This document shows, piece by piece, positions 691 through 30,312 of a DNA stretch of 37,073 nt. The notes under the pieces are model-generated. The model was not told the origin of the DNA and searched no databases. It was given only the letters and a program-made list of their open reading frames with translations. The DNA is from Phormidium sp. OSCR. GTDB taxonomy: Bacteria; Cyanobacteriota; Cyanobacteriia; Cyanobacteriales; Geitlerinemataceae. The number at the start of each line of letters is the position of its first letter. Position 1 is the first letter of the stretch. A program made the translations under genes and the position numbers. Where the stretch lies: NCBI GenBank assembly GCA_001314905.1, contig LJZT01000001.1, positions 1-37,073 on the forward strand. Direction: 5' to 3'.

Positions 691-818
691 AAAGCAGATT
701 TCCCGAGATGAGCGGCTTGTTCAGCGAAGTGAACACCCCGCTCATACTCACCCTTCTCATAAGCTATATCTGACTGGTGACGCAACCGTTTAATTTGCTC
801 AAAAATTGTCTCAAACAT
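1..818 (-). CDS. TPR-repeat protein (kinesin light chain type), 3' end beyond the window
   Basis: The reading frame opens with ATG at 818 and stays open for 272 codons to the left edge, so the C-terminus is missing. After about 50 residues (start MFETIFEQIKRLRHQ) it becomes a run of 42-residue TPR units of the form LNNLAxLYxxMGRLGEAEPL followed by QAMEIxKQQLGETHPxYA. This is the TPR_10/TPR_12 pattern of kinesin light chain-like proteins, which serve as protein-binding scaffolds. GGAGG lies about 12 bases before the ATG. The gene lies 86 bp downstream of the 905-1810 gene on the same strand, so the two may be cotranscribed. Whether a CHAT, NB-ARC or other effector domain follows cannot be seen. 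The family call is firm; the cellular role is unknown. Confidence 0.88.
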   Translation of the reverse strand, partial: MFETIFEQIKRLRHQSDIAYEKGEYERGVHFAEQAAHLGKSAFGTNHPEYATSLNNLAVLYQAMGRLVEAEPLFCQAREILKQQLGETHPDYATSLNNLAALYRDMGRLGEAEPLHRQAMEILKQQLGETHPNYAGSLHNLAQLYQAMGRLGEAEPLFCQAMEIHKQQLGETHPHYAALLNSLAGLYLAMGRLGEAEPLFCQAMEIGKQQLGETHPHYAALLNSLAALYKEMGRLGEAEPLFCQAMEIFKQQLGETHSDYASSLNNLAGLYQ

Positions 819-904
819 CTGCTGACGTTCACCTCCAACTTGCACAACACAACATTTCTCCAACTCCGTCCTCGCCTTCCCCCCAGCCAAGGAACGCCTC
901 TCCC

Positions 905-1810: not shown

Positions 1811-2134
1811 GGTTCGGCCTCTCGTCGGGGGAAGGGCTTGGGGACGGATTCCTGGGGATAGAGTCCGGGATGTTCTCCTATTTCAAGGTAGCACGAGTCT
1901 GGCTAATATGGCTTGAGTCTCCCGCCTTTTGGTTGGTGGGTTGAGGGCTGTGAATCTTGATTGATGGGCGTTTGGGGATGTTGGTTTTGTTTATTAAAAA
2001 ATGTTGTTGGGCGAGTATTTTATTTGTTTTTATTTGCTTTTATTGGTTTTGATTAAGTTTAATATATCTCTTGATTGTTGTGGGCAAAAATGAGGATTGA
2101 TTTGCTATCAATTCTCTTGTTGTCGGTGCGAAAA

Positions 2135-2165
2135 ATCCCCTCCTGGGAGGGGTTGGGGGTGGGTT
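2135..2165. repeat. Interspersed 31-bp G-rich repeat, copy 1
   Basis: It begins with the near-palindrome CCCCTCCTGGGAGGGG (arms CCCCTCC and GGAGGGG) and continues with a G/T-rich tail. The same 31 bp occur at 19786-19816 with one difference (G to A). A divergent relative starts near 19708. Two copies 17 kb apart suggest a dispersed genomic repeat. Confidence 0.8.
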
Positions 2166-2166
2166 C

Positions 2167-2220
2167 TCCCTCGGGGGGGAGGGATGTCCTCGTGTCATGG
2201 CTGGAGCCGTGACACGAGGA
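2167..2220. repeat. Two adjacent inverted repeats
   Basis: TCCCTC and GAGGGA (2167-2184) flank six G. Directly after it, 2187-2202 and 2205-2220 form a 16-bp inverted repeat with a two-base centre and one T/C difference that would pair as a G-U wobble in RNA. The second arm pair begins TCCTCGTGTCA and ends TGACACGAGGA. No T-run follows, so these are not typical terminators. Confidence 0.75.
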
Positions 2221-2227
2221 GGGGGGA

Positions 2228-2247
2228 GGGCGAACAGCCGTTCGCCC
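2228..2247. repeat. GGGCGnAC-type hairpin repeat, copy 1
   Basis: GGGCGAAC and GTTCGCCC form an 8-bp stem around AGCC, followed by CTACATC. The element at 19674-19697 has the same design (GGGCGCACC and GGTGCGCCC, also followed by CTACATC), so both belong to one dispersed palindromic family. Confidence 0.75.
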
Positions 2248-2464
2248 CTACATCGGGGAGGGCAACCACGGCTCGGCTATCGCTCGCCGACCACAAGGGA
2301 TTGCTACGTGGTTCCCCTCATTCCCCTCCCCAAAATCCAATTTTATTTAAATTTATATCCCTCTATTTACCACTATAATCCTTGGATTTATTGCGATTTT
2401 ACAGCTATTTACAGTAATTTTGAGCCTGGTTTTTGATGGAAGTGTCCAGGCATTCGGTGACATC

Positions 2465-2935
2465 ATGAAACCTCAAACTACTCTATCAAAAACCGCCATA
2501 CTTGAGCTTTTAGAATGTCTCATTCCTAACTTAGTGGGACTTTATCTTGATGGCTATCTCGGCTTTGGCTTGAGTCTGGTATTATTCCTCTCTCATTGGT
2601 CAAATCGCCGAGGGGGAAAAGGCTGTGAAAAACGGTTCTTGTTCTGTCTCACGGCGAGTCTGCTGTTGGTGGTGTTCCCTCACGAAAACCTCCCTGGGGG
2701 AACACTCCCACAGCGGGAGGCTCCCCGTCAGGGGGTAACTCGGGATATCTTCAGCAATGGCGAAGGGAAAGGAGAAACCTCTCCCCCCCCTAGCGTCCCC
2801 TTAACGCCGCCAACTTGCGCCGCCAGTCCTGACGCTGCACCGTCTGCCATTGCTGGCGTAACTCCTCGACGGGAACCGACTCCTTCCCATAACGCCAACC
2901 CACATAGGCTTGACAAATTCGAGACACTATGGTAG
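2465..2935 (+). CDS. Doubtful small membrane protein
   Basis: From ATG 2465 the frame reads MKPQTTLSKTAILELLECLI, then two hydrophobic stretches (about residues 17-40 and 56-70). This looks more protein-like than its surroundings. The second half is low-complexity and its last ~145 bp lie antisense to the 3' end of the transglutaminase gene. The ribosome site is weak. It could be a real short protein whose end was eroded by the palindromic repeats, or a chance frame. I cannot assign a function. Confidence 0.22.
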   Translation: MKPQTTLSKTAILELLECLIPNLVGLYLDGYLGFGLSLVLFLSHWSNRRGGKGCEKRFLFCLTASLLLVVFPHENLPGGTLPQREAPRQGVTRDIFSNGEGKGETSPPPSVPLTPPTCAASPDAAPSAIAGVTPRREPTPSHNANPHRLDKFETLW

Positions 2936-5144
2936 CAACTTCGGGAGGATAGCGATCGCCCACCTGACAAGCAAACTCCAAGGGGGTTTGAGCGGGATGT
3001 TTCGCACAGCCATCAGTCGCTAACCGTTGCAACATCTGCTGATATAACCGCTCCATCGCCGCCAACTTGGACAGCCAACGACGGCGTTTCCATTCCCGCC
3101 ACCCTTGCCAACTCAGCCATCCGGCAAAGCTAAACAGAACCAGGGTCAACAAACCCGTCAATATCCCCAACCATCCCTGGGAAAATCGCCCTAAGAACCA
3201 ATCAATGGCCCGGCCAATCATCACAAAAATGCCGTTGATAAACCCCGTCACCGGGGAAGGAAGCCAACCCGCAATCCAATCCCAAAACTGTCGTAAGACC
3301 CCAAAGGGTTCATACTCACTCACCGAGGGGGGAATCACCTCATGGCCAGGGATGGGGTCAAAGGCGAACCAACCATGACTGGGGAAATAGACCTCCGTTA
3401 AGGCGAACGCATGGGTATTCTTGACCTCATACAGTCCCGTAAAGGGGTTAAAGTCCCCTGGTCCGAATCCTGTGGCTAATCGCGCCGGAATCCCCAGGGA
3501 ACGCAACAGAAGGGTTAACACTGTGGAGAAATGGTCGGGATAGCCGCCGGGAGTACAAGCCGCTGGATTGGGGGACTCTTCGCAGCGGAAGAGGAAGTTG
3601 AGGGCTAAGTCTTCCCCTTCGTCAAGAAACTCTAAGCCAAAGGGATCTTGAGGAATGTCGTAGTTCTGTTTGAGATATTGGGCCAGATACAGGGACACCT
3701 CATAGGGGTTCGTGAGGGGGTTGACGGCGTTGGCTAAGACTGATTGGCTATAGTTCCGTAATCTCTCCTCAATCTCCTCGGGAACTTGTAAATAGACCTC
3801 GGAGATGCTTTGCGGATAGGTAGTGTCAGCTTCTCCTAGGCGGGTGCGATCGCGCAAGGAGACGTGAGAGACGACACTATAGGTTAAACCATCAGATAGG
3901 GGGACTGGGGAACGTAGCGACCCCTCTGGACCGATCGCCACATCCTCTGTGGGAAAATAGAGGTAGCGGGGTTGGTCGAGAACCGGAATCAGTCCGGGGA
4001 ACTCGGCGACAATGCTATAGGTTTGAATCACTTCCTGGGTGAAACTGCGGGGTCCCATAAAGGGTAAGTCAAAGCGGAAACTCCAGGATGAGCGACGAAT
4101 CTCGCGGACATCGTCATTTCTGGAGATGCGCCAACCCTGGCCGGTATACTCGTCAAAGGCAATCACTCGCCAAAACCCCGGAGCCTGCGATCGCACCCGC
4201 ATCACCACCTGAGGCGTCATCGACCCCCGCAGGTTTTGGTTCATACTCTCAGCAAAACCTGCATAGAAGGTCTCGTCCATCTCGCCAGGTCCCTCAGCCG
4301 GCCCGCCTATTCCCTCGCCATTACTCTGATCACTATCGGTTTGAGCTTGAGGACTAGCGATATTGCGACCATCGAAGTCTCCCTGAAAATCGATGGTACT
4401 ACTGACGGGAAACGAGCGTAACTGATATCCCGGAACCCGAGGAATGGCCGCAAATAGAACTAATCCTAAACTCAACACCAGTAAGGCCAGGGTTAGGCTG
4501 GCTTTCCAGGGAAACGACTGGCGTAAGCGTGTTACTACCGAAGTTTGGGAATGGTCGGAGGGGCGATCGCTCAACCCCAAACGGGAGCGATAATCATAAA
4601 TCAAGGTGGGAATCGCCAACAGCAAAAATAAGACTAAAAACGGGGCAAAGGCCATGGTTTGGCTAATGGTTCCCGCCACCCCAATCAGAATCAAGGCGAT
4701 GACCATCGAATAGCCCAAATCCTTGCGTCGTGGCAAGTCGAAGGTATGCAGAACTTGCACCTGAATCAACAGTTCCGCTAAAATCACCCTTGTGTCATTG
4801 AGGGTGGCCACCAGGTTGTTGAGAAAGACCACTAGGGTGACAATCAGGGCGATCGCCAAGACAAACTTCAGAACCATGTTACGCTCTCGGCGACGGAACC
4901 AACTCCAACTTGCCCCGATAATACTCAAGGGAACCGCCCAAAGACTAATCAGGGTTCCCGCCGCCACATCCGTAGCCACAATCCCCACAATCACCAGCAA
5001 TTGCACCAGCACCCGTAACGTCACCGAGTCTTCCGGGACTGGCGGGGAGAGCGATCGCCACCACTCCCAAAGTCGCCCTAATAGCGGTAGAGAAGTCCAA
5101 CGTGGGGAATTAGAAGCCGACATAGCAGTTCTCGGGTGGGCCAT
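2790..5144 (-). CDS. TgpA-family transglutaminase-like membrane protein (DUF3488/DUF4129)
   Basis: 784 residues. The N-terminal ~235 residues hold about six membrane segments (DUF3488/TgpA_N). A periplasmic part follows with a transglutaminase-like domain at ~480-605, then a membrane segment near 658-680 and a DUF4129 C-terminus (residues ~695-775). In the usual motif GxCeHFAt the nucleophile is Cys. Here the segment is GGYPDHFST (533-541), with Pro536 where Cys is expected. The nearest Cys are 521 and 530. The His (578, NTHAF) and Asp (596, FDP) of the triad are present. The family is thought to remodel proteins or peptides outside the membrane. ATG 5144 is the longest start; ATG 5123 (MSASNSPRW) is equally possible because neither has a clear ribosome site. 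Confidence 0.88.
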   Translation of the reverse strand: MAHPRTAMSASNSPRWTSLPLLGRLWEWWRSLSPPVPEDSVTLRVLVQLLVIVGIVATDVAAGTLISLWAVPLSIIGASWSWFRRRERNMVLKFVLAIALIVTLVVFLNNLVATLNDTRVILAELLIQVQVLHTFDLPRRKDLGYSMVIALILIGVAGTISQTMAFAPFLVLFLLLAIPTLIYDYRSRLGLSDRPSDHSQTSVVTRLRQSFPWKASLTLALLVLSLGLVLFAAIPRVPGYQLRSFPVSSTIDFQGDFDGRNIASPQAQTDSDQSNGEGIGGPAEGPGEMDETFYAGFAESMNQNLRGSMTPQVVMRVRSQAPGFWRVIAFDEYTGQGWRISRNDDVREIRRSSWSFRFDLPFMGPRSFTQEVIQTYSIVAEFPGLIPVLDQPRYLYFPTEDVAIGPEGSLRSPVPLSDGLTYSVVSHVSLRDRTRLGEADTTYPQSISEVYLQVPEEIEERLRNYSQSVLANAVNPLTNPYEVSLYLAQYLKQNYDIPQDPFGLEFLDEGEDLALNFLFRCEESPNPAACTPGGYPDHFSTVLTLLLRSLGIPARLATGFGPGDFNPFTGLYEVKNTHAFALTEVYFPSHGWFAFDPIPGHEVIPPSVSEYEPFGVLRQFWDWIAGWLPSPVTGFINGIFVMIGRAIDWFLGRFSQGWLGILTGLLTLVLFSFAGWLSWQGWREWKRRRWLSKLAAMERLYQQMLQRLATDGCAKHPAQTPLEFACQVGDRYPPEVATIVSRICQAYVGWRYGKESVPVEELRQQWQTVQRQDWRRKLAALRGR

Positions 5145-5526
5145 GGAACAGGTTTAGCCCCAAATTCGTCTCAACCGTTAGGGGCTACTGATTACTGTGC
5201 CATAACAGACCGCTATTTTGCGACTTAGCTAAATTTACTGATGTCTCTCGGGATAGCGCTGCCAAAGACTCCCCTAAAAACTTGTATTTGCACGTATAAT
5301 CTAACTCTAAATGGGCATCAAACAAAGCTAATCTCCTGTGAACTAACGAGAGAAAACGCTCTAGCAGATATCCATTCAGCGATATTACGGAATCCCCAAT
5401 CCATCAACTTTACCTAAACTTTATCATCACAGCCCCTAAGCCTTACACAACTTTTATACAAGTCTTCCTGCCGCTGAATTATACTAGAGATAGGAGTGGT
5501 GTTAGTAGACGTAATCTAGGACAAAG
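5145..5526. promoter_or_regulatory. Divergent promoter region of the transglutaminase and PEP-CTERM genes
   Basis: About 380 bp without a gene between divergent starts. A TATACT at 5480-5485 lies 41 bp before the plus-strand ATG and may be its -10 element; no good -35 is seen. Another TATAAT is at 5295-5300. AGGA at 5518-5521 is a good ribosome site for the gene starting at 5527. The assignments are tentative. Confidence 0.4.
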
Positions 5527-6312
5527 ATGAATAAATATCTCACAGTAGGACTTAGTTTTCTCGTCCCCTCAGTGATGGCGATCGCAGCATCTCCTGCTCA
5601 CGCCTTCAGCCTAAGTGGTTCTCTCTATAACTACGAACAGGATGACACCAAAGTTGACTACTCGCTTACCCAAGTCGAGGGTGGCATTCAATTTGACTTC
5701 AGAGTCGACACCAGTGTCAACATGGCTGACCTACGAGGGCTGTTCCTCAATATTAACGACGAATCCCTCCTCAGCGGCTTAAGTGCCACCGCCGCCAGCA
5801 ACCCCTTTGCTGACATCGATGCGGCCAACTTCTACAGCATCGGTTCTGACGACTTTAGAATCGATAGCGGGGGGACAACTGATTTTGGCTTTGGTGGTGG
5901 GAATGTTCTCCAGGGCGGAGGCAAAAAAGCCCCACAATACACGATGGGCTTTGATATCGGTGAACAAGGGATTGCCAACTACGACATTCAAGGTACATCC
6001 TTCTTGCTCCAACATGACAGCCAAGACCTCTCCTTAGACCTCTTTAGCGAGAGTATGTTGGGTGTGCGTCTGATGAGTGTTGGTGATAACCGTCAAGGCA
6101 GTAGTAAATTACGAGGAGAAACCTCCAGCGAGATTATCGCCTCTGAGCCAGAACCCGAGCCAGAACCCGAACCCGACCCCCAACCCACCGTCGTTCCGAC
6201 TCCCCTACCCACCCCCGCACCAACTCCCGAGTCTCGGGAAGTTCCCGAACCGATGGTCTTACTCGGCTTAGTCGGTATTGGTGCGGCTCTGAAAACACTA
6301 CGTCGCCGTTAA
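5527..6312 (+). CDS. PEP-CTERM sorting-signal protein, function unknown
   Basis: 261 residues. The N-terminus MNKYLTVGLSFLVPSVMAIA up to ASPAHA is a classical Sec signal peptide with a likely cut after AHA. The body is acidic and Ser/Gly/Asp rich without a domain I recognise. Residues ~205-235 form a Glu-Pro then Pro-Thr spacer. The C-terminus is VPEPMVLLGLVGIGAALKTL followed by three Arg, which is the PEP motif, membrane helix and basic tail recognised by exosortase-type enzymes. The protein is therefore expected to be exported and probably anchored or released at the surface. AGGA five bases before the ATG supports the start. It stands alone between a divergent gene and the oxygenase. Confidence 0.85.
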   Translation: MNKYLTVGLSFLVPSVMAIAASPAHAFSLSGSLYNYEQDDTKVDYSLTQVEGGIQFDFRVDTSVNMADLRGLFLNINDESLLSGLSATAASNPFADIDAANFYSIGSDDFRIDSGGTTDFGFGGGNVLQGGGKKAPQYTMGFDIGEQGIANYDIQGTSFLLQHDSQDLSLDLFSESMLGVRLMSVGDNRQGSSKLRGETSSEIIASEPEPEPEPEPDPQPTVVPTPLPTPAPTPESREVPEPMVLLGLVGIGAALKTLRRR

Positions 6313-6619
6313 TCACGTCGGGCCGTTTATCGTAGCCCCGTTTATCTTAAGGGGAGAGGGCTCCCACTCGTTGCTAAAAGCAGTTCATCCCCGTCCAGGT
6401 GCATCTACACCACTCCCTCTCCAGCGAGTCTTTGAGTCATTTCACCACAGTTGACGTATCAGATCTCGGTCATTTCAGGGTTTGAGATGTGATGGGTTTT
6501 CACCGGCTTCGAGGCTTGGCGATCGCAACCAGGCCACCAAAAGGAACTACATTAAGGAGAGGGAACACCGCGATCGTTAACCCTCCCTCACGTCCTGCTG
6601 ATAGTTCCAAGCACCGCTT
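6313..6619. other. Intergenic stretch, nothing definite
   Basis: About 300 bp between the PEP-CTERM gene and the oxygenase gene. A weak CCCC/GGGG inverted repeat lies near 6335-6355, but there is no T-run to make it a terminator. No gene, clear promoter or RNA was recognised. Confidence 0.4.
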
Positions 6620-7495
6620 ATGACCGCTTACCCACCGTCGAGTTCTCCTAACCAGGATGCAGCCGCCAACCTCAATCTCGACCGTCGGTTTCAAACCCTA
6701 ATCCAACAATCAATCACCACCCTAGAAGCCTTACTCAACGATGACACTCTCGCGCCCCTAGATCGCGCCAAAATTGCCCTAGACCTATTAGCCTTAGCGC
6801 AGAACAACCAAGACATTCCCGAGTTATCCTCCCTCAGCCACAGGAGCCGCTCCCTCGCCACAATTGGGACTGTGGCCCAGGAAGCAGTCCCCGCATCGAG
6901 TTCCCAGGAACTCGATGCAGTGGTCTGTCTCGATGATTTTTTAAGCCCCGAGGAGAATCGTCAGGCCCTTGAGATTGCCTTAAATCAACGCCAAGACTTT
7001 GTCCCCTCTAGCACCACCAGTAAAGCCGATAACTACCGCCAGTCATCGATTCTCTACGCCACCCATTTTCCCCAGTTTTATCACCGGCTCAAACATCAAA
7101 TTCTCGTGATGCTCCCCCAAGTTTGGACTCCCCTTCAGCAGTCTCCCTTCCCGGTGACTCAAGTGGAGATGCAGCTGACGGTTCATGGAGATGGCTGTTA
7201 TTACAAGGTTCATAACGACTCAGGGAGTCCAGAAACCGTCACCCGTGAACTGACCTATGTCTATTATGTGCATCAGGAACCGGCGCAGTTTTCCGGGGGA
7301 GAACTACGGTTATATCAGACGAATGCCAGTGATGGCCGCCTACGCGATCGCCACCGCTTCAAAACCATCACTCCCCGCAACAATCGGCTCGTTGTCTTCA
7401 ACAGCCGTTGTCAACATGAAGTGATGCCAGTTCGCTGTTCCTCCAACAAATTTGAGGACAGCCGTTTTACCTTTAACGGCTGGCTCAGACGCTAG
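6620..7495 (+). CDS. 2-oxoglutarate/Fe(II) oxygenase, prolyl 4-hydroxylase type
   Basis: 291 residues. The C-terminal half (from ~100) is a double-stranded beta-helix oxygenase of the P4Hc type. The metal triad is visible as H198 and D200 in YKVHNDSGS and H266 in CQHEVMPV. R282 (RFTFNGW) is placed to bind 2-oxoglutarate, and the strand FSGGELRLY is typical. The N-terminal ~95 residues are helical with no known domain. Such enzymes hydroxylate proline or other residues in proteins or small molecules; the substrate is not apparent from the context. The ATG at 6620 lacks a clear ribosome site. No operon partner: the next gene is on the other strand. Confidence 0.85.
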   Translation: MTAYPPSSSPNQDAAANLNLDRRFQTLIQQSITTLEALLNDDTLAPLDRAKIALDLLALAQNNQDIPELSSLSHRSRSLATIGTVAQEAVPASSSQELDAVVCLDDFLSPEENRQALEIALNQRQDFVPSSTTSKADNYRQSSILYATHFPQFYHRLKHQILVMLPQVWTPLQQSPFPVTQVEMQLTVHGDGCYYKVHNDSGSPETVTRELTYVYYVHQEPAQFSGGELRLYQTNASDGRLRDRHRFKTITPRNNRLVVFNSRCQHEVMPVRCSSNKFEDSRFTFNGWLRR

Positions 7496-7621
7496 GATCT
7501 CCCCCATCGCTCAACGATTTTTGACAGTTTAATGATGACATCCATAATCTGCACAATCCTCGCTAGATAAGAAAAAGGCAGATTTTTTTTGTCTTAGTTG
7601 TTTTGTCTAACAAACCCAAAA

Positions 7622-8596
7622 TTAGAGGGTTGGACAAAGGGAAAACACAAGGGGAGATTGGCCAGACGCATCAAGATGAACTTCGAGCGTATACGTGTGA
7701 TTCACCTGAATATCCGCCAGTTCAACCGTGATGTGACCGGGAGTTGAGCGTTGTGCAGTGGCCATGGCTCCCTCACCACGTAACTGAACGCGGCCTCCAT
7801 CGGGAAGTTGACAACACACTCGCAATTGAGACACATCATCCTCAGTCTCGAACGCCACCTCAAGTTGCAACAGTCCTTGAGCCGTGAGCCATTGACGGCG
7901 ATCGCTCGGCTGACGGGTCGAAACGTTCAACGATAAGGATTCGACAATTTCTTTCGCCGCCAACAGCGACAACAGCATCTGCTGAGTGGGAGTCGCCCCC
8001 TCATAACTGCTAGGAAATTCCCCCTCAGACGGTTCAATCAGCGTCTCACCACTGCGGCTTGTCGACCACACCAATAAACGCTCCGTCCAAAGATTTAACT
8101 CCTCGCTGCGATCGGGGAAGAGACCTTCAACCGCCGCAACTAAGCGTTCTCCTTGACGTAGCGAGGTTCGTAGCAACTGCTGACAGCGGACTAACAGTTG
8201 CGCAAAGGTGTCTTCGGAGATGGGAACCGGAAGCCGCAACTGTTCGAGTTGCGGTAACCAGACCGAAGTGGGAACTCTCGAATCAGCTTCCTCGTCAATG
8301 GGATCATTAGCGTATTCCAACACCTCGGTGGTTTCCCAGGGGAACAGAGGTAGGTTCTGTTCCAGTTCTTGTTGAATGCGACGCTTTAAAAGCGCCTGAA
8401 AACGGTTCTGCACGGTGGATTCCTCTCCTATGGGTATCGCGTCAAAATCCAGAAACTTAGATGGGGAGCGCTGGGGTTCGACACCCGCTCCCGCGTCAGG
8501 TTCGTTGTCCTGGATAACCTCTTGTAAAAGCCAGGCGAGGAAGCGTTCTGCTAAGCGCTCCTCCTCCTGACTCCATTGGTTCCTATCATTATTCAT
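7622..8596 (-). CDS. patU: PatU-like heterocyst-pattern family protein
   Basis: 324 residues from ATG 8596 (MNNDRNQWSQEEERLAERFL). The segment NRFQALLKRRIQQELEQNLP followed by LFPWE, and the later TPTQQMLLSLLAAKEIVESL, match my recollection of PatU. In heterocyst formers this gene, split there into patU5/patU3, sits directly after hetZ and affects heterocyst pattern. The order hetZ then patU on the same strand supports the call. The stretch GGAGAAGGGAAG just before the ATG is a good ribosome site. The frame is also open upstream to an ATG at 8770 overlapping the hetZ stop, which would add 57 low-similarity-looking residues; I prefer 8596. Role in a strain without heterocysts is unknown. Confidence 0.75.
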   Translation of the reverse strand: MNNDRNQWSQEEERLAERFLAWLLQEVIQDNEPDAGAGVEPQRSPSKFLDFDAIPIGEESTVQNRFQALLKRRIQQELEQNLPLFPWETTEVLEYANDPIDEEADSRVPTSVWLPQLEQLRLPVPISEDTFAQLLVRCQQLLRTSLRQGERLVAAVEGLFPDRSEELNLWTERLLVWSTSRSGETLIEPSEGEFPSSYEGATPTQQMLLSLLAAKEIVESLSLNVSTRQPSDRRQWLTAQGLLQLEVAFETEDDVSQLRVCCQLPDGGRVQLRGEGAMATAQRSTPGHITVELADIQVNHTYTLEVHLDASGQSPLVFSLCPTL

Positions 8597-8613
8597 TCGT
8601 TGACTTCCCTTCT

Positions 8614-8633
8614 CCGGACGTTGGTCCGTCCGG
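8614..8633 (-). promoter_or_regulatory. Hairpin directly before the patU ribosome site
   Basis: CCGGACG and CGTCCGG form a perfect 7-bp stem around a 6-base loop. On the minus-strand transcript the 3' arm runs into the GGAG of the patU ribosome site. It lies in the 166-bp gap between hetZ and patU and could modulate patU translation or act as an RNA-processing or stability element. Confidence 0.5.
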
Positions 8634-8762
8634 TTCCTGATGGCGAGGTCTAGCTTCGAGATCTCAGACAAGGGGCCAGTTTGAGGCCGGTTTGAAGACT
8701 TGCCTCGATTGTCCCCCTTCAGCGAGATGTTTGTCACCCCATCGGCTTGACTGACGGCTTTT

Positions 8763-9905
8763 CTACTCATTGCGATAGTCCCAGGCCCGCTTGAGAAGCG
8801 TAAACCAACGTCGCTGGAGTTGCGAGAGACTGATTCCCAACTGTTGAGCCAAATCGTGATCGTCATCGCCGCGACGTTTCCCTTCAAGCAATATCAACTC
8901 ATCAGATTGACAAGTCTCGACGAACGCCTCCCATTCCGCCGTCGTCATCCCCAGATTGCGATCGAGATCCGCATCGAGCCATTGGTGAACTAACTCCCAG
9001 CGGTGGGATAGGGCAAATCGGATCAGATGGTACTTAAACCGTTGTTGTAAATAATCTCGCTGGCGGGGGTCTAACCCCAGGATGGCTTCAATCTCCCCGG
9101 CTGGCAAGTCCTGTAGCCGCAAGACAAAGTAGTCGGCACAAGCACTTTGATCATTCTCATCGAGGTAAGCAATCAGTTCCTCGATAATGCGGTTGCGCAA
9201 CAGATCATTGGTGGGATCTTGGGCGCGATCAACCATGCGATCGCGGACTTGAGCTAACGACGCTTCCCCCCAACTACTCCCCCCCTCATTGGGCTTACCA
9301 TCACTGGCTTGTTGTAAGTCAACGGAGTATTCAAGAGGCTGTTGCTGTGCAAAAGTCTGGGCGCGTAAAATCACTAACTGCTGACTACGTCCTCGATTGA
9401 GATGAATGCGCCGTTTCCCATAGCGTTCGGTAAACGCCAGATATTCAGCCAATTCCAGGAGCGATCGCGGCGAGTAGGTCGGCGGAAGTTGCGCTTCGCG
9501 ACGCAAAGCGTTAAGGGTTTCGACGTAAAACCCCTGTAGGAAATCCTCAATCAGTTGCAACCGCGCCCCATAACTCGACTGCACTGTTGGGGGCGTAATA
9601 TAGCGATAGACAATGGCGCTGAGGGTACTATGCAACTCCAAGCGCCCCCCTTCTGAGCCACGCCGATAATAATTGAGAACTTGTTGCAAGCGATGTTGTG
9701 CTAAATGATAGCCCCAGCCGAGCACATCACCGGAGCGTTGAATACGTTGACTTTGTTGACAGGTTCGCGTCACTTCCTCGGCAATGCGATTAGCGACGGT
9801 TTGGCAATGTTTGGGGCTGGCGCGAGTACCGGTTTGCAGTTGTTCGACTAACCATTGCACGAGGGAATCTGTCATGGAACTTTCGGGCGCTACTGGGCTA
9901 ACCAT
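8763..9905 (-). CDS. hetZ: HetZ, heterocyst/cell-pattern regulator
   Basis: 380 residues from ATG 9905. The protein matches the HetZ family by segments such as RLELHSTLSAIVYRYITPP, LIEDFLQGFY, TERYGKRRI and LDPRQRDYLQQRFKYHLIRF. The C-terminus (DLAQQLGISLSQLQRRW) looks like a helix-turn-helix. In Anabaena HetZ is an early DNA-binding regulator of heterocyst differentiation downstream of HetR, and the gene is kept in many filamentous strains without heterocysts. Upstream in-frame GTG 9908 and TTG 9911 are possible, as is the internal ATG 9875 (MTDSLVQ); none has a clear ribosome site. The gene is followed by patU. A second family member lies at 19844-21082. Confidence 0.85.
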   Translation of the reverse strand: MVSPVAPESSMTDSLVQWLVEQLQTGTRASPKHCQTVANRIAEEVTRTCQQSQRIQRSGDVLGWGYHLAQHRLQQVLNYYRRGSEGGRLELHSTLSAIVYRYITPPTVQSSYGARLQLIEDFLQGFYVETLNALRREAQLPPTYSPRSLLELAEYLAFTERYGKRRIHLNRGRSQQLVILRAQTFAQQQPLEYSVDLQQASDGKPNEGGSSWGEASLAQVRDRMVDRAQDPTNDLLRNRIIEELIAYLDENDQSACADYFVLRLQDLPAGEIEAILGLDPRQRDYLQQRFKYHLIRFALSHRWELVHQWLDADLDRNLGMTTAEWEAFVETCQSDELILLEGKRRGDDDHDLAQQLGISLSQLQRRWFTLLKRAWDYRNE

Positions 9906-22207: not shown

Positions 22208-22285
22208 TGCATTTGATGGCACTGCCAACCTATAATCGCATTGGTTTCCCCGTCTAACGGGTTTTCGAGGGCAAAAGAACAGGTT

Positions 22286-23578
22286 ATGACCCGTCGCATT
22301 GCTTATTTTGATTGTCCAACAGGTGTCGCTGGGGATATGTGTCTCGGGGCGTTGCTCGATGCCGGCCTCCCCTTGGACTATCTTGAACAACAACTGGCCG
22401 GCTTAGGTTTGGCCGATGCCTTCAGGTTGCGGCCCGAACGAGTCCATCGCAATGGCCAAGCTGGGTTAAAGCTCCATGTGGAGTTAGCCAAGGTCACTCA
22501 AGAGCCGCCAACGTTTGAAGGGCAGGATCACTCCCATCATGATCACTCCCATCATGATCACTCCCATCATGATCACTCCCATCACGGCACTCGTCATTTG
22601 CCCGAGATTGAAACCATGATTCAGGGCGCGAATTTGAGCCAGCGTGCCAGGGATTGGAGTTTGAAGGTGTTTCGACGTTTAGCCGCTGCCGAAGGGGCTG
22701 TTCACGGAATTAGCCCCGATCGCGTCCATTTTCATGAGGTGGGGGCTGTCGATGCGATCGTCGATATTGTGGGAACCTGTATCGGTTTGGATTGGTTCGA
22801 GGTTGACCAGATTTTCTGTTCGGCTCTCCCCAGCGGCGGCGGTACGGTGAACGCGGCCCATGGACGGCTGCCGGTTCCGGTTCCGGCGGTGTTGAAATTG
22901 TTTGAGATGGGCGGGGTGATGATGTATGACAATGGCATTCAGCGGGAGTTGGTAACGCCCACGGGAGCGGCGTTAATGGTGACGCTGGCCCAGTCGTTTG
23001 GCCCGGTTCCGGCGATGACATTACGACAAACGGGGTTGGGGGCGGGAACTCAGGAGTTACCGATTCCCAATCTATTACGTCTGTGGTTTGGGGAAGTCGA
23101 GGAGATGTCTGCGGGGTGCGATCGCGTCTGTGTTTTGGAAACTCAGTTGGATGACACGACGCCTCAGGTGATTGGCTATACCTGCGATCGCCTGTTTGAG
23201 ATTGGGGCCTTAGATGTCTTTACGCAACCGGTTCAGATGAAGAAATTTCGCCCCGGAATCTTATTAACGGTGATTTGTCTGCCCGAGATACAAGAGATCT
23301 GCAAACAGGTGATTTTCCAAGAAACCACGACTCTCGGGATTCGCCAGCGTATTCAACCGCGATCGCTCCTCAACCGTCGCTTCGAGACAGTCATCGTTGA
23401 CGGCCAACCGGTTCGCGTCAAAATTGCCAGTGATACCAGCGGGGCCATTGTTAATGTGCAACCGGAATATGAGGATGTGGCGGCGATCGCCCGTCAACAG
23501 CAACGCCCCTGGCAACAGGTTCAGCAACAGGCCCGAGACGCTTGGCATGACTCTGGATCTCGAACGACTCGACAATGA
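22286..23578 (+). CDS. larC: LarC, nickel-pincer cofactor nickel insertase
   Basis: 430 residues from ATG 22286 ([20 protein letters not shown]). [38 protein letters not shown] and [11 protein letters not shown] are LarC signatures. LarC uses CTP to insert nickel into the pyridinium-bisthiocarboxylate pincer cofactor of lactate racemase and relatives. Residues 81-100 are a His-rich loop of four DHSHH units, a plausible metal store. Unlike lactobacillar larC, which needs a programmed frameshift, this is one continuous frame. No larA, larB or larE is present nearby, so the cofactor's user is elsewhere. AGG lies five bases before the ATG. A Zur-like box overlaps its stop codon. Confidence 0.9.
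22526..22585. repeat. 15-bp tandem repeat coding the LarC His loop
   Basis: GATCACTCCCATCAT is repeated four times, the last copy with C as final base. Each unit codes for DHSHH. Identity at synonymous positions suggests recent slippage. Confidence 0.95.
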
Positions 23579-23590
23579 AAACAATTATCA
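23576..23590. promoter_or_regulatory. Zur-like box upstream of the COG0523 gene
   Basis: TGAAAACAATTATCA fits the cyanobacterial Zur consensus TGAnAATnATTnTCA at 11 of 12 fixed positions. The consensus is from memory of Anabaena work. It lies 38 bp before the ATG of the GTPase gene, and its first three bases are the larC stop codon. It should give repression by zinc-loaded Zur. Confidence 0.7.
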
Positions 23591-23627
23591 TTTACCATAG
23601 TCACTACCCGCCACAACGTTCGATTTT

Positions 23628-24599
23628 ATGGTCAATACCCCCATGCTCAACACCGTCCCCGTCACGGTCCTCACCGGTTATCTGGGAGCCGGGAAAACCA
23701 CCCTCCTCAACCGCATCCTGACCTATGAACATGGCAAAAAGGTTGCCGTGATCGTCAATGAATTTGGTGAAGTCGGCATTGACAACCAGTTAATAATTGA
23801 TGCCGATGAAGAAATTTTTGAAATGAATAACGGCTGTATCTGTTGCACCGTAAGAGGCGACTTAATTCGCATTATTGGTAATTTAATGCGTCGGCGCGAT
23901 AAATTTGACCACCTAGTGATTGAAACCACCGGCTTAGCCGATCCGGCCCCCGTGATTCAAACCTTCTTCGTCGATGAAGATATGCGCGAGCAGCTCAACC
24001 TGGATGCCGTAGTCACCGTGGTAGATGCCAAACATATCCATGATCACTGGGATGCCGATGAAGCTCAAGAACAAATCGCCTTTGCCGATGTGATTCTGCT
24101 CAACAAGACCGATTTAGTCAGCGAAGCCGAGTTACAAGACCTCGAAACCCGCATCCGTTCTATGAATATCATGGCTAAGGTCTATCGCACTCAAGATGCT
24201 GCCATTGAGATGAATGATATTCTCGGCGTCAAGGCCTTTGACCTCAATCGAGCCTTGGAGGTCGATCCGCAGTTCCTCGACGAAGATGCCCACGAGCATG
24301 ATGAGACGGTGGGATCGATCGCCCTTGTTGAAGCCGGGGCCGTGGATGCCGAGAAACTCAATGCTTGGCTGAGTGAGTTGCTGCAAACTCAAGGGCCAAA
24401 CATCTTTCGCATGAAAGGTATTTTGAATCTTGAGGGAGAAGACGATCGCTTTGTCTTTCAAGGGGTGCATATGCTCTTCGATGGTTCCCCCGATCGCCCC
24501 TGGAAGCCCCAGGAACCCCGCAAAAACGAGTTAGTCTTCATTGGCCGCGATCTCGACGAAACGCAGTTAAAAGAGGACTTTCGCGCGTGTCTGGTCTAA
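23628..24599 (+). CDS. COG0523/CobW-family GTPase, probable zinc metallochaperone
   Basis: 323 residues. The P-loop GYLGAGKTT is at 17-25, the metal-binding CxCC motif (GCICC) at Cys70, 72 and 73, and the G4 motif NKTD in the middle. A His/Asp-rich bit DEDAHEHDE is at ~218-226. The C-terminal CobW_C domain ends FVFIGRDLDE. These GTPases deliver metals to proteins. The Zur-like box upstream and the znuACB genes downstream point to zinc rather than cobalt or nickel, although larC directly upstream makes nickel worth a thought. The ATG at 23628 has no strong ribosome site; ATG 23643 is an alternative. It overlaps the WD40 gene by 13 bases. Confidence 0.9.
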   Translation: MVNTPMLNTVPVTVLTGYLGAGKTTLLNRILTYEHGKKVAVIVNEFGEVGIDNQLIIDADEEIFEMNNGCICCTVRGDLIRIIGNLMRRRDKFDHLVIETTGLADPAPVIQTFFVDEDMREQLNLDAVVTVVDAKHIHDHWDADEAQEQIAFADVILLNKTDLVSEAELQDLETRIRSMNIMAKVYRTQDAAIEMNDILGVKAFDLNRALEVDPQFLDEDAHEHDETVGSIALVEAGAVDAEKLNAWLSELLQTQGPNIFRMKGILNLEGEDDRFVFQGVHMLFDGSPDRPWKPQEPRKNELVFIGRDLDETQLKEDFRACLV

Positions 24600-25648
24600 G
24601 GAAATTTTCCCTCAAACAAGCGCGTCGGGGTCAGTTACGCGACTATGGAACGGCCCTGGCTTGGACCCCCGATGGTGCTCAGGTGGCCATGGCCTCGGCC
24701 GCCGGCGAGATTGTCCTGATTTCTCTCGACGGGGCACCCCAACAGGTGCTCCAGGAGGCCGATGGCCAATCCATCGATGTTCTGGCCATGTCCCCCGATG
24801 GTCAATTTCTCGCCGCTGGGGGACAAGCGGGGACGTTACTGATTTGGCGTTTGGGAGAGTCTCCTGAGCTAATTAGCCGCCTGGACAATCCCCGCACTTG
24901 GTTGGACCATCTAGCTTGGCATCCTCAGCGTAATGAGCTGGCCATGGGGTTAGGCTCCTATGTGCAAATTTGGGACGCTGACGCGGCGGAGGTGGTCACA
25001 ACTGTCATGTTTGAGTCCTCCTCGGTATTGGATTTAGCCTGGCATCCCGAGGGAACTCAGTTAGCGGCGGGAGGCCATCAGGGGATTAAGGTTTGGAATT
25101 GTCAGGATTGGGATGAAGACCCCCAAATCTACGAACTTCCTACGGTTAGTGTCTGTTTGGCTTGGTCGGCGAATGGGGAATATCTGGCTTCAGGAAATAT
25201 GGATCGCACTCTGGTGGTTTGGGCTATGGGCAATCCCTATCCTTGGCAAATGCAAGGGTTTCCAGGTAAGGTGCGAGACTTGGCTTGGTCTGAGTTTTGG
25301 TTGGGAGAAGCCCCCCTGTTAGCGTCAAGCAGTCGTGAGGGGATTGTGATTTGGCATAAACATCAAAATGATGACCAGGGTTGGAATCCTCAAGTGTTGG
25401 AACTGCATAATGCTCGTGTCAGTGCGATCGCCTTTCAACCCCAAACTCAGCTACTGGCCTCGGCCTCGGAGGATGGCTCAATTTGTCTCTGGGCAGATGC
25501 GATTGAGGTGGTGCAACTCCTCGATGGAGCCGAGGCCGGGTTTTCGGCCCTGGCCTGGAACCCCAGTGGCACAGCGTTGGCTGCTCTGGGCCAAGCGGGG
25601 GACTGGCTGCTTTGGCAGCAACGCCGCCCCAAAACCGGATTTTTCTAG
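24587..25648 (+). CDS. WD40-repeat protein coupled to the COG0523 gene
   Basis: 353 residues from GTG 24587, inside the end of the GTPase gene. AGAGGA lies about ten bases upstream. The sequence is a chain of about seven WD40 blades, for example LAWTPDGAQVAMASAAGEIV, VLAMSPDGQFLAAGGQAGTLL plus IWRL, and IAFQPQTQLLASASEDGSIC plus LW. This makes a soluble seven-bladed propeller, a protein-binding platform without catalytic residues. The 13-base overlap and the shared strand imply translational coupling with the zinc GTPase. That suggests they act together, perhaps as a docking partner or client selector; this is inference. No metal-binding motif is evident. Confidence 0.9.
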   Translation: MSGLRKFSLKQARRGQLRDYGTALAWTPDGAQVAMASAAGEIVLISLDGAPQQVLQEADGQSIDVLAMSPDGQFLAAGGQAGTLLIWRLGESPELISRLDNPRTWLDHLAWHPQRNELAMGLGSYVQIWDADAAEVVTTVMFESSSVLDLAWHPEGTQLAAGGHQGIKVWNCQDWDEDPQIYELPTVSVCLAWSANGEYLASGNMDRTLVVWAMGNPYPWQMQGFPGKVRDLAWSEFWLGEAPLLASSSREGIVIWHKHQNDDQGWNPQVLELHNARVSAIAFQPQTQLLASASEDGSICLWADAIEVVQLLDGAEAGFSALAWNPSGTALAALGQAGDWLLWQQRRPKTGFF

Positions 25649-25707
25649 GAGATGTCCTCGGAGAATAGGATTTAAGGATTTGAGGATCTAAAGTCTCACA
25701 AAGTTTG

Positions 25708-25722
25708 CAATAATGATTATCA
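25708..25722. promoter_or_regulatory. Zur-like box upstream of znuA
   Basis: CAATAATGATTATCA matches the TGAnAATnATTnTCA pattern at 10 of 12 fixed positions. Seen another way, AATGATTATCATT (25712-25724) is a perfect 13-bp palindrome. It is 46 bp before the znuA ATG and shares 11 of 13 bases with the aligned part of the box at 23576. Confidence 0.7.
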
Positions 25723-25770
25723 TTCACAAAAATAGCTCAATCTGCGACCCCATTACCGAGAACGTCAGCC

Positions 25771-26862
25771 ATGTCTATTCCTTATCTGCCAACGCTTCTG
25801 ACCCCACCTCGTCGCTGGGTTCGTCCTCTGTGGGCGATCGCCACTTCTGTCACCTTAGTGGGGTTGAGTAGTTGTGCCGCAGACCCCGACACCACCTCTG
25901 CAACGCCTCAAGGGGAAACCGACAGCGAGGAACTACAAGTCGTAACCACCTTTCTGCCGATGACTCAGTTCACCAAAGCCGTCGTGGGCGATCGGGCCGA
26001 AGTCACTCAACTGTTACCCCTTGGCGTCGAGCCTCATGACTATCAAGCTCGGCCCGCCGAAGTTCAAACCTTAGTCGAGGCGGATATCTTGGTGAAAAAT
26101 GGCTTGCAGATGGAGTTCTACCTCGATGACCTCATCGCCAATGCTGAAAATCCCGATTTGTTGGTGATCGACACCAGTGAGGGAATCGCGGTTCTCTCGA
26201 ATCAGGACAGCAAAGGTCACGATCATGACCATGATGACCACGACCATGACCACGACCACGACCATGACCATGGACATGACCATGGAGAATACAATCCTCA
26301 CATCTGGCTCGATCCCAAGCGAGCAATCCAACAAGTCGAAAACATCCGCGATGGTCTAATCACCCATGATCCCGAGGGAGAAGCCGAATACACCGCCAAT
26401 GCAGCCGCGTATATTGAACAGTTACGAGATCTCGATGCTGACATTAGCAACGCCTTAGAGCCTTATGCGGGAGGAACCTTTATTGTGTTTCATGACTTTG
26501 CCCCCTACTTTGCCGAGAGCTACAATTTAGAAAGCGATTTCTTGGTAGATGTCCCCGAGTCCAATCCATCTCCCGGAGATGTACAGCGAATCTCAGACCA
26601 AGTGGCCCGAACCAATCTCAAAACCCTTCTGGCTGAACCTCAAGCCGGAGAAGAGACCTTTAGTGCGTTAGCCAGAGATTTAGACATCAATGTCAGTATT
26701 TTTAGTCCCGTAGCAGTAGCCTTCAGTCCTGAGGATATGCAACCCGAGGCCTATCTGACGATGATGCGTGAGAATTTGGCGAATCTCCAGTCAGCCTTTG
26801 CGGGTTCGGCTCAGTCTTGGTGGGAGCTTGAGAAACCTGAGCTGGCCCGCGTCAGTCATTAA
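25771..26862 (+). CDS. znuA: ZnuA, zinc-binding lipoprotein of the ABC importer
   Basis: 363 residues. The lipobox LSSC puts the lipidated Cys at 35. The cluster A-I metal-binding family is shown by LLPLGVEPHDYQ (H89), NPHIWLDP (H177) and FIVFHDFAPYF (H241), the three zinc ligands. Residues ~150-172 form a loop of alternating His and Asp before NPHIW; this loop is characteristic of zinc rather than manganese binders and may capture zinc or sense its level. A Zur-like palindrome precedes the gene. znuC and znuB follow on the same strand, 74 bp and further on, completing the importer. Confidence 0.93.
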   Translation: MSIPYLPTLLTPPRRWVRPLWAIATSVTLVGLSSCAADPDTTSATPQGETDSEELQVVTTFLPMTQFTKAVVGDRAEVTQLLPLGVEPHDYQARPAEVQTLVEADILVKNGLQMEFYLDDLIANAENPDLLVIDTSEGIAVLSNQDSKGHDHDHDDHDHDHDHDHDHGHDHGEYNPHIWLDPKRAIQQVENIRDGLITHDPEGEAEYTANAAAYIEQLRDLDADISNALEPYAGGTFIVFHDFAPYFAESYNLESDFLVDVPESNPSPGDVQRISDQVARTNLKTLLAEPQAGEETFSALARDLDINVSIFSPVAVAFSPEDMQPEAYLTMMRENLANLQSAFAGSAQSWWELEKPELARVSH

Positions 26863-26890
26863 AAAGCCGCAAAAGACCACATCAATCCAG

Positions 26891-26903
26891 CGGTACAATA
26901 CCG
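26891..26903. promoter_or_regulatory. Small palindrome between znuA and znuC
   Basis: CGGTACAATACCG is a perfect 5+3+5 inverted repeat in the 74-bp gap. It could be a hairpin that sets the znuA:znuC expression ratio or an operator; it is too short to decide. Confidence 0.3.
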
Positions 26904-26936
26904 GTTTAAGGCTAACTAAGATAACGGAGGGAAAGC

Positions 26937-27704
26937 TTGAGTGATACTGTAATGACCGTTGATAACTTAACGGTTTATCGTGAGACCTATGCCGCCGTGC
27001 AAGAGGTCTCGTTTTCCCTGGATGCGGGTACAGACACCGCTATTGTTGGCCCGAATGGTGCGGGTAAAAGTACGCTTGTTCAAGCGTTGTTAGGGATTTT
27101 GCCGAGAAAAACTGGTGATGTTTTTATCTTGGGACAGCCGTTAAGCCGTCAAGGAAAACTCCCGTCCCAGGTTCGCGAGCAAATCGCTTATCTGCCCCAA
27201 AATTTCCTCTTTGATCGTCGCATTCCAATCACTGTTGAAGAGTTGGTTGGCTTAGGCTGGGATGCACCGGGAATCCGTCTTCCTTGGGTGGGTGCGAGAG
27301 CGCGATTTCACCATGTGCGTCAGGCGTTAGCGCGGGTTGATGCGGCTCATTTGCGATCGCAACCCATCAGCAATCTCTCAGGTGGAGAGATGAAGCGAGT
27401 GCTACTGTCGTACTGTTTAGTTCGTCCCCGAAGTTTGTTGATTTTAGATGAAGCGCCTGCTGGGTTAGATATTCAAAGTGAGTCGGAGTTTTATCAACTC
27501 CTCTATCAATTGAAACAAGAGCAAGGCTGGGCAATTTTGCAGGTTTCCCATGACTTAGAAATGGTCCGGCGACATTGCGATCGCGTCCTCTGTCTTAACC
27601 GAACCCTACGCTGTCAGGGAGTTCCCGAAGTTGCCCTTTCTCCTGAAAATCTCGTCGCCGCCTACGGAAATGACCGCACTCCCTACCACCATTCTCATTA
27701 TTAA
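26937..27704 (+). CDS. znuC: ZnuC, ATPase of the zinc ABC importer
   Basis: 255 residues. Walker A is GPNGAGKST (38-46), the signature is LSGGEMKR, Walker B is LLILDEAPAGLD and the switch His is in VSHDLEMVRRH. The short length and closeness to ManX/ZnuC-type ATPases fit a cluster 9 metal importer. The TTG at 26937 is the best start because GGAGG lies seven bases before it; an ATG is five codons in. It powers zinc uptake with ZnuA and ZnuB and is separated from znuB by only 6 bp. The C-terminus ends HHSHY, a possible minor metal site. Confidence 0.92.
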   Translation: MSDTVMTVDNLTVYRETYAAVQEVSFSLDAGTDTAIVGPNGAGKSTLVQALLGILPRKTGDVFILGQPLSRQGKLPSQVREQIAYLPQNFLFDRRIPITVEELVGLGWDAPGIRLPWVGARARFHHVRQALARVDAAHLRSQPISNLSGGEMKRVLLSYCLVRPRSLLILDEAPAGLDIQSESEFYQLLYQLKQEQGWAILQVSHDLEMVRRHCDRVLCLNRTLRCQGVPEVALSPENLVAAYGNDRTPYHHSHY

Positions 27705-27710
27705 ACTCTC

Positions 27711-28556
27711 ATGGTCATGTCTTTGACTGTTGAACTCGCTCGTGTTGTCGATTTGTTTCAACTTCCGTTCATGCACCGCGCCTTAATTGGTGGTGTTTTA
27801 ACTGGCATGATGGGAGGACTCCTCGGGAGTTTTGCCATATTACGACAGTTATCATTTTTTAGTGATACCTTAGGGCATTCAGTCCTCCTGGGAATCAGCC
27901 TAGGCATAGTATTTGGACTCAATCCAACCGTGGTCTTATTACCCTTTGCCGTTGTTTTTGCCCTCGTTGTATCCTACTTACTAGAAAAAACGAAACTTTG
28001 GACAGATGCTCTTTTGAATATCGTCTATTCTTCGTCATTAGCACTAGCCATTATCTTACTCAGTTTTGTGGGTCAATATAAGGGAGGACTCAACAATCTT
28101 TTATTTGGAGATATTTTAGCAATTCGCCCCGGAGATTTGGTCTTTAGTGCCGTTCTGCTTGTGGTTTGTGTCTTATTTGTGGGGTTAACTTTGAATACTC
28201 AAATGCTCGTAACCCTTCACGAAGAATTAGCCATGGCTCGGGGGATTTCAGTCTCGACCCAGCGAATGTTATTTATTGTTTTATTGGCTTTAGTTGTGGG
28301 TATTTCTATCAAAGCAATTGGAGTATTACTCATCAGTGCCTTTGTGGTTATTCCGGCATCTGCCGCCCAATTTATTGCCGGCAAATTTTCCCATTATATC
28401 ATCATTTCTTCTCTGATTGGTGCAGTTAGTGCTGTTGGAGGAATGTTGCTCTCTGCTCTTTTTGATTTACCCTCGGGTCCAAGTATTGTGCTGACTCAAT
28501 TGACCCTATTTTTTATGGCGGCGTCTCTTCCTTATCTACGGAGACTGGCGTTTTAA
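27711..28556 (+). CDS. znuB: ZnuB, permease of the zinc ABC importer
   Basis: 281 residues with about eight hydrophobic segments. FMHRALIGGVLTGMMGGLLG, FFSDTLGHSVLLGISLGIVF and the later IGVLLISAFVVIPASAAQFI are signatures of ABC-3 type metal permeases. It forms the membrane channel for zinc entry with ZnuC as motor and ZnuA as binder. Two ATGs two codons apart (27711 and 27717) are possible starts. The gene ends 3 bp from the convergent DUF6544 gene with no room for a terminator, so the transcripts probably overlap. Confidence 0.92.
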   Translation: MVMSLTVELARVVDLFQLPFMHRALIGGVLTGMMGGLLGSFAILRQLSFFSDTLGHSVLLGISLGIVFGLNPTVVLLPFAVVFALVVSYLLEKTKLWTDALLNIVYSSSLALAIILLSFVGQYKGGLNNLLFGDILAIRPGDLVFSAVLLVVCVLFVGLTLNTQMLVTLHEELAMARGISVSTQRMLFIVLLALVVGISIKAIGVLLISAFVVIPASAAQFIAGKFSHYIIISSLIGAVSAVGGMLLSALFDLPSGPSIVLTQLTLFFMAASLPYLRRLAF

Positions 28557-29386: not shown

Positions 29387-29425
29387 ATCAGAGTCATCCA
29401 TCAGCGTCATCCATCAGAGTCATCG
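29387..29425. repeat. 13-bp tandem repeat over the CDF gene end
   Basis: ATCAGAGTCATCC, ATCAGCGTCATCC and ATCAGAGTCATCG follow directly. The stop codon of the CDF gene (29407-29409) is inside the middle copy. Since 13 is not a multiple of three, a change in copy number would move the stop and alter the C-terminus. Confidence 0.85.
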
Positions 29426-30312
29426 CCGTAACTGATCTTCTCAGATTGATAGTTCGGCGGTTCCATATGAATCGTGAGGCGAATGGGGGAAAAACGATCT
29501 TCAAGTTTCGCTTCAATATCTTCAGTAATACCATGAGCCGTTGCCAAATCTTGAGCATCAACCACAACGTGCATTTCCACAAACAACTGGCGGCCATTTA
29601 AGCCCCGCGAGGCGATATCATGGCAATTGATGACCCCAGGAACCTCCATCACTAGATTATGGATGGCTTCGGGGGCGATCGCCATCTCATCAATCAACCA
29701 GGGGAGATTCTCCCGCAACACCTCCCAGCCGCTGCGAAAGACTAACCCAGCCACCGGAATCGCCAAGAGAATATCCAACTGGGGATACCCCAGCCACACC
29801 CCAATCAGCCCTAGCATCACCGTAATCGTAATCCAGACATCACTCATGGTATGGTGAGCATCGGCAATCAAAATTTTACTGCCGAGTTTCAGGCCGACTC
29901 GTCGCTCATAGTAGGTGACGAGGATATTAACCCCCAACACAAAGAGCATTAGCCAGAGGACTAGCGGAGACATCGTCACGGGGTTCTCATCAGCCAACAG
30001 ACGCTCTAACACCCCCTTGAGAATCTCGAAAAACGCCGCCCCCAGAAACGCCGCAATCCCCAAAGCACCAATGGCTTCAAACTTCTGATGTCCATAAGGA
30101 TGTTCGCGATCGGGTTTGGGAGACGATAACTGACTCGTCACCAATCCGAGGATATTACTCGCACTATCGGTGGTGCTATGGAGCGCATCAGCGACTAAAC
30201 TCAGGGAGCCAGTCCACCATCCTAAACTTCCCTTAATGATGACCACTAAGAGATTCAGGGCCAAGGTGACCAGCAACACCTGGCGGACTTGAGGGCGATG
30301 ATCGACAATCAT
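29407..30312 (-). CDS. Cation diffusion facilitator (CDF) metal exporter
   Basis: 301 residues with six membrane segments. The two metal-site motifs are H45-x3-D49 in DALHSTTD and H154-x3-D158 in DAHHTMSD, on helices 2 and 5. DREHPYGHQKFEAIGALGIA is the conserved cytoplasmic loop. The C-terminal domain (MEVPGVINCHDIASRGLNGR, then VEMHVVVD) is the dimeric ferredoxin-like part. CDFs swap Zn, Mn, Fe or Co for protons. H-x3-D rather than D-x3-D at both sites leans towards zinc or cadmium; the zinc import genes on the other strand agree. The last residues SYGDDSDG come from a 13-bp repeat. ATG 30312 is the start. Confidence 0.9.
   Translation of the reverse strand: MIVDHRPQVRQVLLVTLALNLLVVIIKGSLGWWTGSLSLVADALHSTTDSASNILGLVTSQLSSPKPDREHPYGHQKFEAIGALGIAAFLGAAFFEILKGVLERLLADENPVTMSPLVLWLMLFVLGVNILVTYYERRVGLKLGSKILIADAHHTMSDVWITITVMLGLIGVWLGYPQLDILLAIPVAGLVFRSGWEVLRENLPWLIDEMAIAPEAIHNLVMEVPGVINCHDIASRGLNGRQLFVEMHVVVDAQDLATAHGITEDIEAKLEDRFSPIRLTIHMEPPNYQSEKISYGDDSDG

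Follow-up and report, generated by a model that had tools for sequence, protein, structure and literature searches.

What might a WD40-repeat protein contribute to zinc uptake in a cyanobacterium? The question is raised by a 37,073-nucleotide stretch of the genome of Phormidium sp. OSCR (contig LJZT01000001.1; hereafter the window), in which five plus-strand genes encode, in this order, a COG0523 GTPase, a WD40 protein and the ZnuA, ZnuC and ZnuB components of an importer. The span runs from 23576 to 28556 when the first of two Zur-type boxes is included. Zinc rationing in bacteria, algae and animals has been ascribed to COG0523 GTPases. A conserved partner protein whose surface motif is strongly kept, in genetically tractable bacteria, is a concrete candidate for how these GTPases choose their clients. 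The first-pass annotation of this DNA had described the GTPase gene, the WD40 gene and znuACB together with two Zur-like palindromes, one before each of two gene groups on the same strand, and we found every one of these elements in place.

The cluster is real, well conserved and of a kind already described, and it probably responds to zinc limitation. We propose a two-transcript locus on which Zur, when loaded with zinc, would act as repressor. Under zinc shortage Zur would leave box 2 and znuACB would be made for zinc import; Zur would likewise leave box 1, and the GTPase and the WD40 protein would be made together. The GTPase would then spend GTP to deliver the scarce metal to selected client enzymes, and the WD40 protein, a cytoplasmic propeller scaffold poor in metal ligands, would dock the GTPase to its clients or hold the client. 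Zur binding and induction by zinc shortage are what we infer from the sequence; metal transfer by the GTPase and its physical contact with the WD40 protein are proposed in the same spirit. We give this explanation as a whole somewhat better than an even chance. Zur regulation of the locus is very probable, and the role of the WD40 protein as an adaptor for the GTPase falls slightly short of an even chance.

The gene arrangement itself has been in print since 2009. The accessible text of Haas et al. 2009 (PMC2770081) reports that WD40-repeat, znuABC and creatinase genes are neighbours of prokaryotic COG0523 genes of subfamily 5, some of which lie behind predicted Zur sites. The window shows the same gene company with Zur-type sites upstream, a likeness drawn from gene company alone. 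That text assigns the WD40 protein no role, and no paper giving it a molecular role was found in the openly licensed literature; the annotation's remark that this protein is not a known part of zinc uptake thus holds for its function and gives way where its clustering is concerned. Beyond PMC2770081, we add counts of co-occurrence, the tie between box and GTPase gene, the thrS and cysS contexts and a cyanase-linked sister clade.

Five genes behind two Zur-type boxes

The GTPase gene (23628-24599) encodes 323 amino acids with CobW_N and CobW_C domains. Profile scores of 213 bits for PF02492 and 98 bits for PF07683 place the product in the COG0523/G3E family, and the ZigA and CobW models of NCBIfam match it below their cut-offs. 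Its GYLGAGKT, CICC and NKTD motifs, as GYLGAGKT, C70-I-C72-C73 and N159-K-x-D162, are kept in at least 98% of 73 sequences. The WD40 gene (24587-25648, 353 amino acids, PF00400 at 114.9 bits), whose product is a predicted eight-bladed propeller, begins with a GTG at 24587 inside the end of the GTPase gene. This 13-nucleotide (nt) overlap makes joint expression of the two likely. The genes znuA (25771-26862, 363 amino acids, PF01297), for a periplasmic binding protein with a His-rich loop, znuC (26937-27704, 255 amino acids, PF00005), for an ABC transporter ATPase, and znuB (27711-28556, 281 amino acids, PF00950), for an ABC-3 permease, stand together as in a ZnuABC importer. The best NCBIfam matches, all below cut-off, name zinc systems for the binding protein (AztC) and the permease (AztB) and a manganese system for the ATPase (MntA). 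Given the His-rich loop of ZnuA and the Zur-type box, we favour zinc as the metal carried.

Box 1 (TGAAAACAATTATCA, 23576-23590, plus strand) ends 37 nt before the GTPase start, and box 2 (CAATAATGATTATCA, 25708-25722, plus strand) ends 48 nt before the znuA start. Promoter-like hexamers, which are consensus matches only, surround box 1 (TCGACA and TACCAT, 18 nt apart, 23569-23598, plus strand) and overlap box 2 (CTCACA and TATCAT, 17 nt apart, 25695-25723, plus strand); a simple scan found three promoter-like sites in the stretch against a shuffle mean of 1.6, a weak excess. The same scan found no terminator-like site between 23400 and 26000. A Zur-type box at the promoter is the mark of a Zur regulon, and the locus carries it.

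Each box differs at two positions from the consensus TGATAATNATTATCA. Scanning the window with this pattern at up to three mismatches gave three matches where shuffled sequence gave 0.97 on average; three were also reached in 8 of 100 shuffles, so the result is weak by itself. Across the 4.69-Mb genome, at up to two mismatches, there were 24 places against 11 for the reversed pattern. We then scored the sequence with a 23-column matrix whose 48 distinct source sites came from other genera, outside the close group of the window. Its top two places in the window were box 2 at 25.7 bits and box 1 at 19.1 bits, and 30 dinucleotide shuffles gave no more than 16.1 bits. Genome-wide, the count of 24 against 11 does not settle rarity. 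The cyanobacterial Zur consensus printed in the accessible part of PMC9337993 is NTNANAATGATNATCATTNTNAN. Box 2 matches its 13-base core, AATGATNATCATT, exactly and box 1 matches it with two mismatches; on the full consensus, box 2 has two mismatches, and the best placement near box 1 has four and lies 6 nt off its core.

The boxes recur in relatives. In a second set of 80 named loci, which overlaps in genomes with the 30 loci fetched first and is not independent of them, 76 have the GTPase gene before the WD40 gene, and 72 of these have enough upstream sequence, three being close relatives of the window. A site with no more than three mismatches was found in 63 of the 72 GTPase upstream regions, and the core from PMC9337993, at up to two mismatches, in 61; about two were expected from shuffles in each case. 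Around box 1, a 24-nt block (23568-23591) is invariant between drifting flanks in all seven aligned sequences (the window, three congeneric genomes and three named close relatives). Shared Zur control of both gene groups, as the annotation had envisaged, is well supported at the sequence level by the conserved boxes, the promoter-like hexamers, the presence of a Zur-like gene elsewhere in this genome and the 13-nt overlap.

The GTPase-WD40 pair across cyanobacteria

The GTPase gene stands directly upstream of the WD40 gene in all 30 loci fetched first, the window included, and no fusion of the two in one frame was flagged there. Among the 76 named loci with this order, the genes lie within 0.5 kb of each other in 72 and touch or overlap in 30, as far as starts estimated from alignments allow. 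The four exceptions are L055, L059, L086 and L107, the last of which begins about 240 nt before its WD40 gene. In L086 (Chlorogloeopsis fritschii PCC 6912), the WD40 gene is preceded by a one-mismatch box and by what, when the DNA is read by eye, appear to be the last GTPase codons. In 291 cyanobacterial genomes, not corrected for relatedness, the WD40 gene was found in 63, the GTPase gene in 60 and both in 59, leaving four genomes with the WD40 gene only and one with the GTPase gene only. In one of the four (G063), the WD40 gene has beside it a GTPase gene that is split among several frames (L186), which leaves three (G274, G289 and G355). In our genome surveys 7 to 17 candidates were scored per genome, so some of the absences may be missed genes. 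The pair is adjacent, within 0.5 kb, in 51 of the 59 genomes that hold both, and three genomes (G040, G117 and G169) each carry two complete adjacent pairs.

Some WD40 copies stand without the GTPase in other company. In L189 the gene lies behind the threonyl-tRNA synthetase gene (thrS) with a box of 22.3 bits, and in L212 behind the cysteinyl-tRNA synthetase gene (cysS) with a box of 23.8 bits; our WD40 tree is a quick one, in which the joining of these two contexts may be a long-branch artefact. The copy in L210 stands behind a box of its own, at 16.1 bits, and shares an island with znuABC-like and GTP cyclohydrolase I genes. A further lone copy, in L181 (G014:C31, 3016-4501), adjoins a FurA-like gene on the opposite strand. 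In L055 and L185 (G289:C70), where the GTPase gene is not adjacent, the WD40 gene is directly preceded by a frame that, judged by eye, resembles a TnpB-type transposase gene; an insertion has possibly displaced the GTPase gene.

A sister clade of the WD40 proteins lies in or near cyanase operons (9 rows; Shimodaira-Hasegawa-like approximate likelihood ratio test support of 96 in the quick tree; loci L207, L208, L211 and L213-L220). We found this clade in eight genomes among 243. The gene order is reversed in six of the eight, with the GTPase gene within 0.5 kb downstream of the WD40 gene and its product 78-82% identical to that of the window, and cyanase (PF02560) lies upstream in five of the eight, within the 1.5 kb examined. 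These six GTPases form one clade nested among the zinc-cluster GTPases in a FastTree phylogeny. No box of at least 13 bits was found in the eight loci. The ninth row (L191/L209, G012) has the WD40 gene after cyanase with no adjacent GTPase gene, and in some of the cyanase-linked loci a DUF1348 gene follows the GTPase gene. We found no paper in the openly licensed literature that treats cyanase and COG0523 together.

Several results weigh against the explanation proposed above. A box with up to three mismatches is absent from nine of the 72 GTPase upstream regions. Of the 12 close znuA homologues in the named loci, no more than 6 have such a box within 300 nt of the start, and none of the 36 GTPase-WD40 gaps of over 60 nt contains one. 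With the matrix, two further genomic places reach 24.7 and 19.1 bits, as high as the boxes themselves. Frequent neighbours of the pair include genes with no evident link to zinc, namely an alpha/beta hydrolase gene (23 of 80 named loci) and SufE (15 of 80). The WD40 protein is far less conserved than the GTPase, with a mean top-residue share of 0.67 versus 0.86, and the 291-genome co-occurrence was scored on seven candidates per genome. Where the two genes are unlinked, in eight genomes, no WD40 gene has a box of at least 13 bits in the 400 nt scanned upstream (one of these stretches is cut by a contig end). Judged from these sequences, the WD40 gene does not retain zinc control once it is free of the GTPase gene.

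The high-scoring genomic places lie in what appear to be coding frames, which suggests chance sites. Eleven further stretches of the same genome (82,251 bases) held, besides these two, only weaker places of 12.4-14.2 bits. A score alone proves nothing, since other, apparently coding sites score as high, and we rejected the genome-wide consensus scan as decisive proof of a regulon for that reason. It is position and conservation that, on the sequence comparisons, lift boxes 1 and 2 above chance.

Could the WD40 protein have no zinc-handling role at all and be an old operon neighbour merely co-transcribed with a Zur-controlled GTPase? We consider this unlikely. In its favour, in the same eight genomes that have no box before the WD40 gene, the GTPase gene keeps one of at least 19.5 bits in four. 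The box belongs to the GTPase gene, because separated WD40 genes and the gaps between the two genes hold none, and the link of the WD40 gene to zinc, as read from these sequences, runs mainly through its neighbour. The three genomes that keep the WD40 gene without a GTPase gene also fit a mere passenger. A passenger would, however, be hard to square with the near-constant company of the two genes, which extends to the eight genomes where they lie apart, or with the duplication of whole pairs in three genomes and the pair in the other order near cyanase. The lone WD40 copies that follow a Zur-boxed thrS or cysS gene, or a box of their own, also count against a mere passenger.

More broadly, and tentatively, as an idea that we expect is rather more apt to fail than to hold, the WD40 protein and the COG0523 GTPase may be near-obligate partners of one cyanobacterial metal-delivery machine, in which the propeller would select or hold the client and the GTPase would bring the metal. 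This machine would be plugged into zinc-starvation clusters and also into cyanase operons, where the WD40 clade is a derived one and the two genes stand in the opposite order; the lone copies behind Zur-boxed thrS and cysS would serve those enzymes. The cyanase context would then place the pair outside zinc starvation as well.

The regulator and the propeller

Boxes of the FUR family resemble one another, and the genome holds three FUR-family genes. The boxes might for these reasons serve Fur or PerR, and so iron or peroxide, instead of Zur. We regard this as very unlikely, because the boxes fit the printed cyanobacterial Zur core and one of them stands before znuA. The neighbourhood of the pair in the 80 named loci points the same way: it includes a Zur-like gene in 8, hemB in 13 and cysS in 5, and no FurA- or PerR-like gene in any of the 80 at E ≤1e-12. 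Of the three FUR-family genes of the genome, L002 encodes a protein whose best match among solved structures is Zur of Synechococcus WH8102 (7NE9, E 4.1e-31). Another locus, L039 (Nodosilinea sp. LEGE 07088, 6-9514), has a second COG0523 gene, a Zur-like gene (50% identical to that of L002) and hemB near the pair, as well as a gene for a MerR-CbiC fusion like the cobalt sensor CoaR.

Zur control of such genes has precedents in other cyanobacteria. The accessible parts of the literature report that in Anabaena sp. PCC 7120 both znuABC and COG0523 genes belong to the Zur regulon (PMC6103462, PMC10957091) and that Zur binding at the znuA promoter has been shown in Synechocystis sp. PCC 6803 (PMC12058595). 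The regulons described there share with the window the combination of znuABC and COG0523 genes (PMC6103462, PMC10957091, PMC12058595). A WD40 protein is not mentioned in the accessible parts of these three papers, whereas the window ties a WD40 gene to the GTPase gene.

An AlphaFold2 model of the WD40 protein is a confident propeller, with a mean predicted local distance difference test score (pLDDT) of 90.8 and a predicted template modelling score (pTM) of 0.88. Foldseek comparison gave full-length template modelling (TM) scores, normalised to the query, of 0.79-0.86 for ODA16, TBLR1, Notchless/Rsa4 and the eight-bladed design Tako8, and of about 0.64-0.66 for seven-bladed WRAP designs and WDR5. 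The protein is probably eight-bladed in this model, because its scores are higher to eight-bladed than to seven-bladed folds. The best-kept stretch in 81 sequences is PWxMxGFPGKVR (residues 219-230). His274 is the sole histidine, and Cys300 (81%) the sole cysteine, conserved in at least 80% of these sequences, a pattern that argues for protein binding over metal binding. No hydrophobic export signal was seen by eye at the N-terminus, and no NCBIfam model named the protein at E ≤1e-5.

That the WD40 protein is itself a zinc-binding chaperone is most improbable: the accessible text on AztD (PMC6689063) describes an eight-bladed propeller, equal in blade number and likewise encoded near a zinc transporter with its ZnuA-type protein and a CobW-family gene, but AztD is periplasmic or cell-surface with two conserved zinc sites, whereas the window protein has neither such ligands nor a visible export signal, and the 50 best fold matches listed for it do not include AztD by name.

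Neighbouring genes

Upstream of the GTPase gene lies larC (22241-23578, plus strand), which encodes a nickel insertion protein (PF01969) with a His-rich stretch. Its 3′ end lies inside box 1, the first three bases of which are the larC stop codon. Close relatives (L005-L007 and L034-L036) likewise carry larC upstream of the GTPase gene.

Beyond znuB, a gene for a CDF transporter (29407-30312, minus strand) points towards znuB. Its product passes the cut-off of the NCBIfam Cdf31 zinc exporter model (502.5 versus 460 bits). The gene recurs in L034 and L036, there next to znuB and a DUF6920 gene, so that genes for zinc import and export lie side by side.

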